In this document: piece by piece, positions 5,275 through 40,163 of the stretch | How positions within the stretch are numbered: the first letter of the stretch is position 1 | How the letters are laid out: the number at the start of each line of letters is the position of its first letter | Notes under the pieces: model-generated | Seen by the model: only the letters and a program-made list of their open reading frames with translations | The model's database searches: none | Told to the model about the DNA's origin: nothing | Position numbers and translations under genes: made by a program | Assembly: GCA_016125045.1 (NCBI GenBank) | Contig: WGML01000004.1 | Coordinates: 1 to 64,000, forward strand | Direction: 5' to 3' | DNA length: 64,000 bases | DNA from: a bacterium | GTDB lineage: Bacteria; Pseudomonadota; Alphaproteobacteria; Caulobacterales; Hyphomonadaceae

Positions 5275-7830
5275 ATGGTGGATGTCTTTATATCATACGC
5301 AAGCGCGGACCAGGCGCGGGTAAGCCCGATGGTTGCTCGCCTGAAAGCCGAGGGCTGGAGCGTCTGGGATCATGCGTCGGATGATCCGTCGGTGGACGCC
5401 GCGGATGCGGAGCGCCAGCTCGGGTCAGCCGGCGCGGTGTTTGTGGTCTGGTCGGCGACGGCGCGCATGTCCGAGCGGATGCGCTCGGAGGCCGGATCGG
5501 GCCTTTACAAGAACAAGCTGGTGCAGGTGCGCGTCGATGGTTCGCAGCCGCCGCGCCCTTTCGATCAGGTCGAGGTTGCCGAGCTCGGTACATGGGACGA
5601 CGATCCTGATGACGGCCGCTGGCGCAGGGTGGTTGCGGCGATCCGGGTTTATGCTGGAACGCCAGGCTCCGCCCGGCCGCAGGTCGTCCGGGTCGCAGCC
5701 GCCGCTTCGCCGGCGACGGCCTCCGTGATGTCCTCAAGGTCGCCGGCGGCGCAAGGACCGGCGGCGCAGGGGCAGGCGGCGCTGGCTTCGGATCGGCGCG
5801 AGAACGAGGTCGACCGCCGGGTCGCGGGCGGCCATGTCGGTGGCCGGATCGAGACGCGCGAGCGGCGCATCGCCGCGGGCGAACGCAGGGTTGAAACCAC
5901 GAGCAGGGTCGAAACGACGGGTCGGGGGGCGGCGAGTGAGCGCGCGCGGGTCGAACAGATCCACGCCAAATCAGTAGAGGACGCCATGATCTCAACGCGT
6001 GAATCCGAACGCCGCGCCGCGGAGGTGCGGGCGGCGGGCTATCACCCGACATCGAGCGAAATCGGCGGCGGGATGGTCCTGGACGATGCGGATGCGGAAC
6101 GTCCGCGCCTCAGACTGTCGGTTGTCGCGGTCGCGGTGGCGGCGGTGGCCGGACTTGCATGGGCGTTCAATCCGTTCGGCGAGGGACGCAGCGGGTCCGG
6201 GGCGGCCTCGGCGAGTTCGGGCGCGAAGGTGATGGTGGATTCGGCCGCGGCGGACGCGGCGTGGGGCGAGGTGGACCGGACGAACCCTTCCGCGCTGCGG
6301 GCCTTCATCGCGAATTTTGGCGGGGCGCCGGCGGCGGAATCGGCGCGGTCGGTGCTGCGGGTGCTCGATGCTCAGGCCTGGGCCGAGGCGGTGATCTCCG
6401 ACACGGAAGCGGCGTATTCGGCGTATCTTGCGTCCTTCCCGCATTCGGACACCACGCCCGGCGTGATGGCGAAGGACGCGACGGAGCGGCTGAACTCGCT
6501 CGGTCTCGAGCGTCAGCAGGCGATTTCGGCGATCCAGTCGGCGCTGCAGGCGATGTCGCGTTACAACGGGGCGCAGGACGGCGCGCCCAACGCCGCGACG
6601 GTTTCAGCGGTGCGGGCGTTTTCGGCGGACATGGACATTCCGACGCCGGATCTGGTGCTCGGCGCGCCACGCGACATCCGCGCTTACGCCGATCGGGTGA
6701 TGCTGTCGCTGCCGGAGGACGCGCGGGCGCGTCTGGCCTCCGGTGCGGCGCCGGCGGGCGGCGCGGTGCAGCAGGCCTCCGTCGACACCACCGCCGCGGC
6801 GCGGGCGCAGGCGGAGGCGCAGGCCGCCGCACGGGCTAAAGCGGCGGCGGACGCCGCGGAAGCGGAAAGCCGGCGGATCGAGGACGCCCGCCGCGCGGTC
6901 CAGCAGGCGGAAGCGGAGCGCACGCGCGTCGAGACGGCGGAACGCGTGGCGGCTGAGCGGGCGGCGGCTGAGCGGGCGGAGCCTCGCGTCGACGCATCGG
7001 CGGCAGCGCCGGCGCCGGCGCCGGCTGAAGCGAGCGCCGATACGCTGGCGCTGGAACAGCTCCAGCGGGCGGAGGCGGCGGGATGGGCGAGCGCGCAGGC
7101 GCAGAACACCCTCGCCGGCTTCCAGGCCTATCTGCGCAACTTCCCAAATGGCGCGAACGCCGCGACCGCCCGGACGGAGGTCGCTCGGCTCTCACGGCCG
7201 GCGCCCTATAGTGCGGCGCAACTGCCGGCGCCGTTGCGGACCGCGGTCGAGGCGGCGCGCGCGGCGCGAACGACCGCCGAGGCACGGGCGGCGGCGGCCC
7301 GCAGCACCGCCCAGCAGGCTGATCGCATCGCGCAGGCCGCGGCGACCGGCGCGGGCGGCGCGGCGACCATCGTGGCGCCGGACGGCGATCGCTACGACGC
7401 CCAGGTGTCGAACGGGGTCGTCAACGGGCTTGGCGTCCGGGTGAGCGGCGATGAGGTGTCGCGCGGCGACCGCTATCGCGGTCAGCTGCAATCGGGCCTC
7501 AGCCAGGGTCTCGGGGTGTTCGAGTTCGCGGAGAACCCGAACAACGCCGCGGCGGGCGCCCTGCGCTATGAAGGCGAACATGCGCGCGACGCGGCGGCGG
7601 GTCTCGGCGTCACCTATTGGCGCAACGGCAATGTCTACGCCGGCGAGGACGCATCGAGCGGTGAGGCGCGCGGCGTGATGACCTTCGCGGATGGCCAGCG
7701 CTATGACGGCGAACTGCGCAACGGGCAACGCAACGGCTTCGGCGTCGTGTGGTCGGCGACCGGCGAGCCGGTGATGGCCGGCCGCTGGGAGAATGGCGAA
7801 CTGGTGGAGCCGGTTCCCGTCGCTCCCTAG
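5275..7830 (+). CDS. TIR domain - transmembrane - MORN-repeat protein
   Basis: 851 aa. Residues 1-~130 form a bacterial TIR domain: VDVFISYASADQ, WSVWDH, VFVVWSATA and RSEAGSGLYKNKL, the Glu in RSEA matching the usual catalytic glutamate of TIR NAD-cleaving enzymes. One transmembrane segment lies at ~278-297. After it come a W..A..YL.SFP repeat (~325-400), a stretch resembling a peptidoglycan-binding-1 helix bundle (~414-478), a long Ala/Arg/Glu coiled coil (~505-590), another YLRNFPNG repeat, and C-terminal MORN-like repeats (~702-851; YRGQL, YEGEH, YDGEL, GRWENGE). The start at 5275 is preferred because AGGGG lies seven bases upstream and MVDVFISYAS is the natural TIR start. NADase activity is inferred, not shown. 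Confidence 0.82.
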   Translation: MVDVFISYASADQARVSPMVARLKAEGWSVWDHASDDPSVDAADAERQLGSAGAVFVVWSATARMSERMRSEAGSGLYKNKLVQVRVDGSQPPRPFDQVEVAELGTWDDDPDDGRWRRVVAAIRVYAGTPGSARPQVVRVAAAASPATASVMSSRSPAAQGPAAQGQAALASDRRENEVDRRVAGGHVGGRIETRERRIAAGERRVETTSRVETTGRGAASERARVEQIHAKSVEDAMISTRESERRAAEVRAAGYHPTSSEIGGGMVLDDADAERPRLRLSVVAVAVAAVAGLAWAFNPFGEGRSGSGAASASSGAKVMVDSAAADAAWGEVDRTNPSALRAFIANFGGAPAAESARSVLRVLDAQAWAEAVISDTEAAYSAYLASFPHSDTTPGVMAKDATERLNSLGLERQQAISAIQSALQAMSRYNGAQDGAPNAATVSAVRAFSADMDIPTPDLVLGAPRDIRAYADRVMLSLPEDARARLASGAAPAGGAVQQASVDTTAAARAQAEAQAAARAKAAADAAEAESRRIEDARRAVQQAEAERTRVETAERVAAERAAAERAEPRVDASAAAPAPAPAEASADTLALEQLQRAEAAGWASAQAQNTLAGFQAYLRNFPNGANAATARTEVARLSRPAPYSAAQLPAPLRTAVEAARAARTTAEARAAAARSTAQQADRIAQAAATGAGGAATIVAPDGDRYDAQVSNGVVNGLGVRVSGDEVSRGDRYRGQLQSGLSQGLGVFEFAENPNNAAAGALRYEGEHARDAAAGLGVTYWRNGNVYAGEDASSGEARGVMTFADGQRYDGELRNGQRNGFGVVWSATGEPVMAGRWENGELVEPVPVAP

Positions 7831-24516: not shown

Positions 24517-25366
24517 TCAGTTGATCGGCGAGAGAAGCTCCGGCGCGGTCACCAGAGCGCGGACGCCGTGGGATTCATGTTCCTTGAAGGGATTGTCCGC
24601 CGCGGCCGCCCAGCGGTGAAGGGAGTTGATGTCGAGCTTGGCGCAAGCCGGACGCACGCTCCAGGTGACGTTGAGGGGCGAGCACACGTTGTGCGTGTAG
24701 CTCGGCCCGGTGGTCGAGCCGCGGAACACGACGGGCGCGCCCGTGTCCACCGGCAGCGCCCTGGCCTGGTGGAAGCCGCCGGGGGCGGGCGGTCCCGCGT
24801 AGGTGAAGTCGGCGAAATCGAGCGCGGCGGGATCGTTCACCAGCAGGAATGCCTGCGCCTCGACCCGCAGGAGCGGATCGGTGCAGGCGTCGTTGAGGCA
24901 GGCGCCGAGCCCCTCGCCCGGGCCGACATTGCAGGAGGAGTGCACCCAGTGCACCTCGATCGTGTCGCCGGGCCTGACATTGGCGAAGGCCGCTTCGCCC
25001 TCGATGGGCGTGAGTTCGGCGGCGGTGAGGGCGGCGGTTTCATTGCACCGGTAGCCGCCATGTTCGCCGTCCCCGGCGAAAACGGAAAAGCCGGGCGCCT
25101 TTGTGTTCGGCGTTGGTGTGCGTGTGGATGTTGCAGAGGTTCATCCCGCGCGGCGAGGCGGCGAGGGGAAAGAGGTCGGGGTTCGCGCCGGTGGGATTGG
25201 CGATGTCGCGCGGCGTCTGCGGCCCGAAGCCGACGCAGAGTTCGGCGGCGGCGGGTTCGATCGCCGCGGCATCCGGGGCGGGCGGGCTCGCCGGACTGCA
25301 CGCACCGAGGCCGAGCGCCGGCGCGACGAGAAGGGCGAGGAGCCGGGCGGGGCGGGTGTGGGTCAA
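24517..25366 (-). pseudogene. Delta-class carbonic anhydrase, split by a +1 frameshift
   Basis: Two frames together give one protein of ~282 aa. The 5' part has a lipoprotein signal (ALGLGAC), then CVGFGPQTPRDI and MNLCNIHTHTNAEHKG. The 3' part begins GFSVFAGDGEHGGYRC and continues through EVHWVHSSCNVG, RVEAQAFLLVND, FRGSTTGPSY, VTWSVRPACAKLDI and HGVRALVTAPELLS. These blocks match the diatom-type delta carbonic anhydrases and their bacterial relatives. Dropping one base within 25091-25099 (a GGGCGCC run) restores the frame with KGPGFSV at the join. TTG at 25366 has GAGGA upstream and starts the signal peptide. It is either a real frameshift or a sequencing error. Confidence 0.8.
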
Positions 25367-25639
25367 GGCGGGGCGTCCTCCTGGGGGCGGAGGCTCAGGA
25401 CCGCCGCGACGCCGCATTGAAGCGCGATTCGGCGCGCCGTTCCGACCTCTGACGTTGCGGCAGGTGGGGCGGCAGTGGGGGGGCTTTCGGGCGAAATCCC
25501 GGCCCGCGCGGTGGCCTTCGGCGGTCCGGGGGGGTATCATCCGCTGGTCAGACACGCTCCGGCCCTGCTCCGCACCGATCCGCCGCGAGCCGCCAACGCC
25601 GCGTTTCAGCGCGGACCTGACCCCGGAAAGCCGCCGTTC

Positions 25640-37413: not shown

Positions 37414-37516
37414 GCGGGGCGGAACTCGAACTTGAACGCGCGGTGCTCGCGGTGATCCGCGCGGATGCGGGCGTGAAGGTGCTGCTCGGCGACCCGGTTC
37501 GGATCGGTGCGGGCGG

Positions 37517-37542
37517 TGAACCGCCCCGGGTTTGCCGGAGGC
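37517..37542 (+). repeat. IS3 left inverted repeat
   Basis: 26-base terminal repeat, identical in inverse orientation to 38815-38840. Confidence 0.95.
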
Positions 37543-37566
37543 TCCTGATCTTGAGAGGATGGAGCT

Positions 37567-37899
37567 ATGACGGATGGAACGGGGAAGCGGCGTCGGCCGC
37601 ATTATTCAGCCGAGCTGCGCGACCGCGCGGTGAGGATGGTGAAGGAGGCGGCGCCGGATCACGGCTCGCATTGGGCGGCGATTTGTTCGGTGGCAGCGAA
37701 GATCGGGTGTTCGGCGCAGACGCTTCAGACGTGGGTCCGCAAGGCTGAGGAGATCGACGGCCGTCAGGCCGCTGAGGATCGCGCTCGGCTGAAAGTCCTG
37801 GAACGGGAGAACCGTGAACTCCGCCAAGCCAATGAGATCCTGCGGAAAGCCTCTGCGTATTTTGCGGCGGCGGAGCTCGACCGCCGGTCAAAGACATGA
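37567..37899 (+). CDS. IS3-family transposase OrfA
   Basis: 110 aa. N-terminal helix-turn-helix (YSAELRDRAVRMV...IGCSAQTLQTWVRKAE) that binds the IS ends, followed by a leucine-zipper-like helix (RLKVLERENRELRQANEILRKASAYF). Its TGA overlaps the ATG of orfB (ATGA at 37896-37899). A classic A6G slippery run is not evident, so coupling by reinitiation is as likely as a -1 frameshift. Confidence 0.93.
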   Translation: MTDGTGKRRRPHYSAELRDRAVRMVKEAAPDHGSHWAAICSVAAKIGCSAQTLQTWVRKAEEIDGRQAAEDRARLKVLERENRELRQANEILRKASAYFAAAELDRRSKT

Positions 37900-38801
37900 T
37901 CGCCTTTATCGACGATCACCGCGGGGCCTACGGGGTCGAGCCGATCTGCTGTCTGATGCAGATCGCCCCGTCGACCTATTATGACCACCTCGCCAAGCGG
38001 AAGGATCCATCCCGGCGGTCAGCGAGGGCGCAACGCGATGAGGCGCTGAAGGCGAAGATCGCCGGCATCTTCGAGGAGAACTTCGGTGTCTACGGCGCCC
38101 GGAAAGTCTGGCGGCAACTTGCCCGGGAAGGTGAGACCGTCGCTCGGTGTACGGTGGAGCGGCTGATGAAGGCGATGGGCCTGGTTGGGGCTGTACGCGG
38201 CAGGAAGCTCAGGACCACCGTACCCGACAAGGCGGCGGTCTGCCCGCTTGACAGAGTGGATCGCCAGTTCAGGGCGCCTTGCCCGAACAGGCTTTGGGTC
38301 AGCGACTTCACCTATGTCGCCACCTGGTCGGGCTTTGCCTACGTCGCGTTCGTGATCGATGTCTTCGCCCGAAGGATCGTCGGCTGGCGGGTCAGCGGCA
38401 CGGCGCACACAAGCTTCGTCCTCGACGCCCTGGAGCAGGCCCTTCATGAGCGTCGTCCCGCAAAACAGAGCGGTCTGGTGCATCACAGCGACAGGGGCAG
38501 TCAGTACGTCAGCATCAAGTACACGGAGCGCCTTGCGGATGCTGGGATCGAGCCGTCGGTCGGCAGCGTGGGGGACAGTTACGACAACGCCCTCGCCGAG
38601 ACGGTGAACGGGCTCTACAAGACCGAGCTGATCCACGCGCGCGGCCCGTGGCGCAGCCTCGAAGCCGTCGAACTCGCCACACTCGAATGGGTGGACTGGT
38701 ACAATCACCGCCGACTTCTCGGCCCGATCGGCTACATCCCGCCTGTAGAGGCCGAAGAGCGATACTTCCAAAATCAAGAAGCCTACGCCATGGTGGCGTG
38801 A
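37896..38801 (+). CDS. IS3-family transposase OrfB (DDE integrase)
   Basis: 301 aa. HTH_21-like YGARKVWRQLAREGETVARCTVERLMK, then an rve integrase core with the DDE triad in WVSDFTYVAT, VHHSDRGSQY and YDNALAETVNGLYKTE. C-terminal WVDWYNHRRLLGPIGYIPP is the usual IS3 ending. Complete and probably active. Confidence 0.95.
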   Translation: MIAFIDDHRGAYGVEPICCLMQIAPSTYYDHLAKRKDPSRRSARAQRDEALKAKIAGIFEENFGVYGARKVWRQLAREGETVARCTVERLMKAMGLVGAVRGRKLRTTVPDKAAVCPLDRVDRQFRAPCPNRLWVSDFTYVATWSGFAYVAFVIDVFARRIVGWRVSGTAHTSFVLDALEQALHERRPAKQSGLVHHSDRGSQYVSIKYTERLADAGIEPSVGSVGDSYDNALAETVNGLYKTELIHARGPWRSLEAVELATLEWVDWYNHRRLLGPIGYIPPVEAEERYFQNQEAYAMVA

Positions 38802-38814
38802 CTCAAATAAACCT

Positions 38815-38840
38815 GCCTCCGGCAAACCCGGGGCGGTTCA
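38815..38840 (-). repeat. IS3 right inverted repeat
   Basis: 26-base terminal repeat, the exact inverse of 37517-37542, followed by the CGG target duplication. Confidence 0.95.
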
Positions 38841-39158
38841 CGGCGACGGGAAGCCTGCTTTCCCGTTCATCGAAATCGTGCGGCACCAGAGTGAGGACGC
38901 CGGGGCGGCGGGGATCGAGGCGCAGCGGCACAGGATCGATCTGCGGATCGAGACGCGACCTGCGGCGAGGGATGACGCCAAGGCGGCGCTGCAGGCGGTG
39001 CGGGACGCGCTGGCGGCGGCGACGGCGGCGCCCGCGGGCTGGCGCTGCGTGCTCATGATCCCGGTGTTTGCGGATGTTCTGGAGGCGCGCGCGGGCGCGT
39101 CGTTCGCGGCGGTGCTGCGGCTTGTCGCGGTCATCGAGCGCAATGCGGAGGTGGTGCA

Positions 39159-39330
39159 ATGAGCGGGCAAAGAGGGCGCGACGTCCTCATCAGGATCGGC
39201 GATGGCGGCGCGCCGCAGAGCTTCGTCACAGCGGCGGGGATTCGCACGAAGACCTTCCGGCTGACGACCGGTTCGGCGGATGCGACGAGCTGGGAGAGCG
39301 CGGGCGGCTGGCGGGAGCTGATCGCCGGCG
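39159..39330 (+). pseudogene. GTA gp9 (major tail protein), 5' fragment
   Basis: About 57 codons: MSGQRGRDVLIRIGDGG...AGIRTKTFRLTTGSADATSWESAGGWRELIAG. This is the start of the GTA major tail tube protein, normally ~130-140 aa. It stops matching the family at a GGCGGCGGCGG tract (~39326-39337), where the sequence switches to the end of gp11 in another frame. Translation from this ATG would not stop but run on in frame into gp12, giving a 334-codon fusion. ATG overlaps the gp8 stop. Confidence 0.82.
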
Positions 39331-39528
39331 GCGGCGGTCGCTTCGGCGGTGGCGGAACTCGCCCTTGCGCGGGCCTCCGGCGTAACGGAGGCGGGCGGCG
39401 GGTCCTCGCCGGTCAATGTGATGATGACAGTCGCGCCCGGGGCGGCGTCGCGAGACGTCGCCCGGTCCGGCAATCAGATCGCAGCGCTGGTCGCGCGCGC
39501 GGTTCGGCGGGGGGCGCGGTTCACATGA
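39331..39528 (+). pseudogene. GTA gp11 (tape measure), 3' fragment
   Basis: In the frame starting at 39331: AVASAVAELALARASGV...SSPVNVMMTVAPGAASRDVARSG..IAALVARAVRRGARFT, then TGA. The final ~35 residues have the usual GTA tape-measure ending (beta strand VNV.MTV.AP.A, then a helix .QIAALVARAV.RG). Its TGA overlaps the gp12 ATG, the normal gp11/gp12 junction. It has no start of its own; an upstream TGA lies at 39319. Confidence 0.75.
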
Positions 39529-40163
39529 GCGGCTTCCATGAGGTGAGATTGCCGTTGGCGCTGGCGCTTGGCTCGAGCGGCGGCCCTCAGATCGCGGTCG
39601 AGGTGGTGCGGCTTGCGTCCGGCCGCGAGGTGCGGGTGCGGCGCTGGGCGGGATCGCTGCGGCGATGGGAGATCGGCGGCGGTGTGATGGATGTTGCGGC
39701 GGCGGAGGCGCTCGCGGGGTTCTTCGAGGCGCGGGGCGGGAAGGCGTTCGGGTTTCGCTTCCGCGACCCGGTCGATTGGCGGAGCGCTGCTTCCGGCGCG
39801 CCGGTTACGGCGCTCGACCAGCCGCTCGGCGAGGGCGACGGTGTCACGGCGGCGTTCCAGCTGGTGAAGCGGTATGGCGCCGGGGATGGGGCCGGCGACG
39901 GGGCTGGCGATCGGCCGATCCGCAAGCCGGTGGTCGGTACGGTGCGCGTTGCGATCGATGGCGTGGAGACCGCGGGCTTCCTGCTCGATTCCGGCGCCGG
40001 CGTTGTGACGTTCGACGCCGCGCCGATGGCGGGCGCGGTGCTCACGGCCGGATATGAGTTCGATACGCCGGTGCGCTTCGACATGGAGTCGCTCGACCTT
40101 GCGCTTGAGGGACCGCGGGCGATCCGCCTGGGGCCTGCGGCGATCGTCGAACTGGCGGGCTGA
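39525..40163 (+). CDS. GTA distal tail protein (gp12, DUF2460)
   Basis: 212 aa. DUF2460 pattern: MSGFHEVRLPLALALGSSGGPQ, VVRLASGREVRVRRWAGSLRRWEIGGG, LAGFFEARGGKAFGFRFRDPVDWRS, KRYG, VRVAIDGVE, TFDAAPMAGAVLTAGYEFDTPVRFD. Complete, with an Asp/Gly-rich insertion (AGDGAGDGAGDRPIRKPV). Could be made from its own ATG, or as part of a gp9-gp12 read-through. Confidence 0.92.
   Translation: MSGFHEVRLPLALALGSSGGPQIAVEVVRLASGREVRVRRWAGSLRRWEIGGGVMDVAAAEALAGFFEARGGKAFGFRFRDPVDWRSAASGAPVTALDQPLGEGDGVTAAFQLVKRYGAGDGAGDGAGDRPIRKPVVGTVRVAIDGVETAGFLLDSGAGVVTFDAAPMAGAVLTAGYEFDTPVRFDMESLDLALEGPRAIRLGPAAIVELAG

Follow-up and report, generated by a model that had tools for sequence, protein, structure and literature searches.

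A one-base frameshift in the gene of a bacterial delta-class carbonic anhydrase lipoprotein from the Hyphomonadaceae, with a possible relation of its family to the alpha class

The gene considered here lies on the minus strand of a 64,000-nucleotide stretch of DNA (the window) from a marine-type alphaproteobacterium of the Hyphomonadaceae, whose 2.96-Mb genome is assembled in 13 contigs and is 82% complete. It raises two questions: whether it truly belongs to the delta-class carbonic anhydrases (delta-CAs), which are best known from diatoms though common in bacteria, and what is to be made of the single base that breaks its reading frame. Our reading, held with a probability of about 0.9, is that this is the gene of an exported, lipid-anchored delta-CA, of which the allele as written is split by one base and would yield an inactive fragment of 108 residues, the lesion being either very recent or a lone error. 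The relevant features are as follows.

25366-24517, minus strand: whole delta-CA gene (PF10563 lipoprotein), frameshifted, opening at a TTG behind a ribosome-binding site.
25375..25380 (approximate), minus strand: AGGAGG, Shine-Dalgarno-like, some 9 bases upstream of the TTG, as read from the sequence.
25097..25366, minus strand: N-terminal part, with the TTG, a signal peptide with lipobox LGAC, the CxGxGPQTPRDI block and the HTHTNAEH block (PF10563, E 5.6e-6).
25093..25099, minus strand: interval of the one-base frameshift, in the HKG/PGF block of the family, from comparison with intact relatives.
24517..25095, minus strand: C-terminal part in the next frame, with EVHWVH, GSTTGPSY, VTWSVRP, SHGVRxLVTAPELLS and the stop (PF10563, E 5.2e-39).
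25040..25366, minus strand: truncated 108-residue product that a correct sequence would give in the absence of recoding; it is without EVHWVH and all that lies downstream.

A preliminary description, made from the sequence alone, had assigned the gene to the delta class on the strength of the blocks EVHWVHSSC, AFLLVND, GSTTG and TWSVRPACAKLDI, all of which are found on the minus strand as claimed, and profile searches bear the assignment out. PF10563, the Pfam model on which the literature relies for delta-CA (PMC8119650), matches both halves of the gene separately, with 134.6 bits for the C-terminal part and 27.0 bits for the N-terminal part by hmmscan (E values as listed above) and with 175.8 and 26.7 bits, respectively, in the profile search of the genome; both halves are thus above the curated cut-off of 26.3 and far beyond chance. 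No NCBIfam model scored above its cut-off, either for the window fragments or for intact relatives. The histidines of the family (in the HxH...EH block, in ExH and in the C-terminal SHG) and its cysteines are all kept, but are divided between two frames, and the continuous open reading frame through the PF10563 domain that all relatives examined possess is absent from the window copy. The gene as sequenced is a broken copy of a delta-CA family member.

The type delta-CA, TWCA1 (TweCA-delta) of the diatom Thalassiosira weissflogii, for which use of zinc and cobalt is reported (PMC6776030), shares its Pfam family, PF10563, with the window gene over the whole domain. The conserved histidines, the cysteines and the GSTTG and VTWxVRP blocks of the TWCA1 family are kept in the window gene, which differs from TWCA1 in being bacterial, in carrying a lipoprotein signal and in having its frame broken by one base. 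Further counterparts are the RefSeq 'delta-class carbonic anhydrase' proteins of Shewanella baltica conjugative plasmids and a homologue from Henriciella mobilis, which are homologous along the full C-terminal fragment; these are intact, whereas the window copy is frameshifted. Since RefSeq already gives this name to bacterial plasmid homologues, and 484 stretches of prokaryotic DNA encode relatives (see below), the surprise at a bacterial delta-CA implied in the preliminary description is reduced: the window gene adds an ordinary new member to a bacterial branch of the delta-CAs that is known and has already been named.

The break itself can be followed through both frames. The first opens with TTG at 25366, passes through the lipobox LGAC and reaches ...CNIHTHTNAEHKG; it continues to ...MNLCNIHTHTNAEHKG, after which the homology picks up one frame over as PGFSVFAGDGEHGGYRCNE. 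The second frame, PGFSVF...LLSPIN, carries in order PGFSVFAGDGEHGGYRCNE...EVHWVHSSC...GSTTGPSY...VTWSVRPACAKLDI...ELLSPIN, with a stop that ends at 24517. Intact relatives read HTHTNAEHKGPGFSVF in a single frame, which places the extra base within 25093-25099, inside the interval of about 25091-25099 first proposed for a single-base shift. The GC content of codon position 3 is 0.89 before the shift and 0.88 after it, each in its own frame, which is like that of neighbouring genes, and no second stop or frameshift was seen in the roughly 850 bases of the gene. With the ribosome-binding site and signal also intact, the view that the rest of the gene is undamaged holds, and the lesion should therefore be of very recent date or else an isolated error of one base.

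The preliminary description had also proposed a lipoprotein, and an N-terminal signal peptide that runs up to the cysteine of a lipobox, LLALLVAPALGLGAC, is indeed recognizable by eye; most relatives carry comparable lipobox motifs (LAGC, LVGC or LAAC). From this signal we infer a membrane-anchored enzyme on the envelope side, where a lipid-anchored delta-CA would speed the reaction CO2 + H2O <-> HCO3- + H+. One H. mobilis strain has two divergent delta-CA paralogues, the second with an AxA-like signal peptide and no lipobox. An alignment of 21 diverse members shows five invariant histidines: the HxH pair, that of EH five residues further along, the first in ExHxV and a last one close to the C terminus. 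The zinc ligands are likely the HxH pair and the ExH histidine, as judged from conservation, i.e. in the window gene both histidines of NIHTH and the first of EVHWVH would hold the metal, two of the three predicted ligands lying in the HTHTNAEH block of the N-terminal part and the third in the EVHWVH of the C-terminal part. Because the shift separates the conserved HxHxxxEH block from the conserved ExHxVH block, the predicted zinc site is complete in neither fragment, and an extra base in this position would leave the sequenced allele with an inactive product of 108 residues. We found no report in the literature of an assay of a bacterial delta-CA; with the genome 82% complete, a second delta-CA copy could be missing from the assembly.

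The wider distribution of the gene is patchy, and it is mobile. The 484 stretches mentioned above came from scanning a collection of 84,980 species genomes of prokaryotes; those kept, 80 in number, are from alpha- and gammaproteobacteria and Acidobacteriota, and many belong to metagenome-assembled genomes. Delta-CA genes are present in 16 of 385 genomes sampled across the Alphaproteobacteria and in 17 of 105 Hyphomonadaceae genomes (4 of 10 genera); they also occur on seven plasmids of Shewanella, Pseudoalteromonas and Piscirickettsia, four of which are typed as conjugative. No delta-CA relative was found on viral contigs. In the tree, the sister of the window gene is an intact gene from the same family, Hyphomonadaceae (support 99/93), and the C-terminal fragment of the split gene is 67% identical to the nearest same-family relative and 47% identical to the S. 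baltica plasmid copy. Four S. baltica strains have delta-CA on plasmids; on one of these, the conjugative pS19502, an intact delta-CA gene lies between IS6 transposase and recombinase genes, whereas the window copy has a PBP1A gene on one side and a cytochrome P450 gene on the other. These two neighbours are absent beside the named delta-CA loci compared, and genomic context thus gives no functional clue.

A separate observation concerns an uncharacterized exported protein family encoded directly after intact delta-CA genes in seven alpha- and gammaproteobacterial loci (L012, at 7060-7824, and, at similar positions, L018, L042, L046, L062, L084 and L090) and upstream of the gene in L033. Most of its members end in a C-terminal aromatic residue, as outer-membrane beta-barrels do; the one member scanned had no Pfam or NCBIfam match, and two homologues are encoded elsewhere in the genome of the window.

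As to what caused the frameshift, two of the three readings offered in the preliminary description still stand, loss in the very recent past and an isolated base error, with real loss slightly ahead. A genuine, recent inactivating mutation, in a lineage that is losing its delta-CA as another carbonic anhydrase covers the need, has in our view about an even chance of being correct. The patchy presence in the family (17/105 genomes) indicates frequent gain or loss, and a search for alpha- and beta-CAs in the genome detected a beta-CA (PF00484) and no alpha-CA. Loss of the envelope enzyme would leave that beta-CA, of one other class, in place and would therefore be tolerable. The terminal branch leading to the C-terminal half is among the longest in the tree (0.47 versus a median of 0.072), and that half also shows the most mismatches in strongly conserved columns (6 of 88, one being at the shift itself; the next highest value is 4), which is a weak hint of relaxed constraint, or may simply mirror a lack of close relatives, the host genus being represented by one genome here. 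Further decay in the window, namely an IS3 element in a tail-completion gene and an apparent deletion in the same gene transfer agent (GTA)-like cluster, fits with loss, but a second lesion within the roughly 850 bases of the gene is lacking.

That the shift is instead an error of sequencing, consensus or assembly, and that the delta-CA gene of the organism is normal and intact, is a serious contender that falls somewhat short of even odds. A single one-base indel is a common form of error, and beyond that one base there is no decay, the ribosome-binding site, signal, catalytic-type residues and codon bias all being preserved; moreover, every relative examined is open through the shift site, including those in 16 other Hyphomonadaceae genomes, 15 genomes of the class and about 80 named loci. 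Against an error, the site is not a long homopolymer, and the long branch and conserved-column mismatches described above weakly suggest relaxed constraint. The low general density of frameshifts likewise speaks for real loss: when the open reading frames of 854 kb of this genome were compared, in both directions, with those of 1.2 Mb of one complete relative, 2 frameshift-like events were seen across 108 genes (115 kb) in this assembly, one of them being that in the delta-CA gene, and 3 across 84 genes (97 kb) in the complete same-family control. A generally frameshift-ridden assembly was rejected on these figures. Control of the enzyme by programmed +1 frameshifting or phase variation, the third reading offered, is very improbable, since, although both halves are well conserved and free of stops, no mononucleotide run longer than 4 occurs near the shift (the only short repeats of the gene lie elsewhere), no slippery sequence is recognizable by eye, no repeat tract or conserved recoding signal was found and none of the relatives examined is shifted.

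The GTA-like cluster in the window has features of its own. The IS3-family element (37513-38844) has 30-base terminal inverted repeats, orfA and orfB, and an ALIL frameshift pseudoknot (RF01497) at 37854-37970; it sits in a gp17-like tail-completion gene of the GTA/prophage-like cluster, where CGG seems to have been duplicated as its target. In the open reading frame at 39159-40163, the N-terminal ~57 residues of a phage tail tube protein (PF06199) are fused to a DUF2460 protein, which suggests that an internal deletion has taken away the remainder of the tail tube gene together with the intervening part, which in complete GTAs is the tape measure. With this fusion and the IS3 insertion, the cluster looks defective.

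Returning to the delta-CA family, the arrangement of its motifs raises the further question of how it relates to the alpha-CAs. Bacterial alpha-CAs carry HFHxPSEH ... MExHxVH ... GSLTTPP..(C)..V.W.V, and delta-CAs carry HTHTNAEH ... IEVHWVH ... GSTTGPSY..C..VTWSV, with matching order and secondary structure. The ordered signature HxHxxxEH / ExHxVH / GS(x)TTxP, the motifs of which were written after seeing both families, occurs in nearly all of the delta sequences (49 of 50) and most of the alpha sequences (14 of 17); of 7,942 background open reading frames, a single one has it, itself a delta-CA. The alpha-CAs (PF00194) and delta-CAs belong to different Pfam families and are set apart by a longer insert between the first two motifs; around the signature, however, the order of strands and helix is similar, the known strand order of the alpha-CAs serving as reference. 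We consider it rather probable that the delta-CAs of bacteria, and by extension those of diatoms, form a divergent part of the alpha-CA superfamily and are not an independent invention; on this hypothesis the two classes would correspond in their zinc ligands, in the Glu-Thr gate and in the order of the strands.

An AlphaFold2 model built from 80 relatives has a mean pLDDT of 81.8 and a pTM of 0.84; an earlier model from 43 sequences was weaker (pLDDT 70.7, pTM 0.75). With both models, Foldseek against the PDB gave alpha-CAs or the alpha-CA-like vaccinia protein D8 at all 50 listed ranks (best E 2e-4); in a viral library, the highest named ranks went to OPG105 proteins, which are likewise alpha-CA-like. 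Global superposition of the model on alpha-CAs is poor, with a TM score of at most 0.34, so the similarity is local. Comparison of delta and alpha profiles by hhalign was not significant (P 0.03-0.05; the best of 24 decoys gave 0.057, and 4 of 60 column shuffles scored as high), and hmmsearch with delta-CA against PDB sequences recovered no alpha-CA. Given the poor superposition and the profile result, shared ancestry of the two classes is suggested only. The idea of a common superfamily is partly prior art, because alpha and delta have been listed together under carbonic anhydrase among families with a predicted 3_1 knot (PMC11184937); the eight CA classes were called structurally unrelated in 2026 (PMC13098186).

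The window thus adds one more, apparently broken, copy to an already named and seemingly unassayed family of bacterial enzymes. In marine alpha- and gammaproteobacteria and Acidobacteriota, delta-CAs are widely distributed and are carried by conjugative plasmids too, whereas the literature consulted treats the class as mainly algal. As of 2018, neither a structure of a delta-CA nor its proton-transfer residue was known (PMC6009927), and we found no PDB chain with a meaningful sequence match to the family, which would make a small bacterial homologue a practical structural target, both for the metal site and for the relation to alpha-CAs. The resemblance of the catalytic motifs of delta-CAs to those of alpha-CAs is, as a hypothesis, the more interesting lead.
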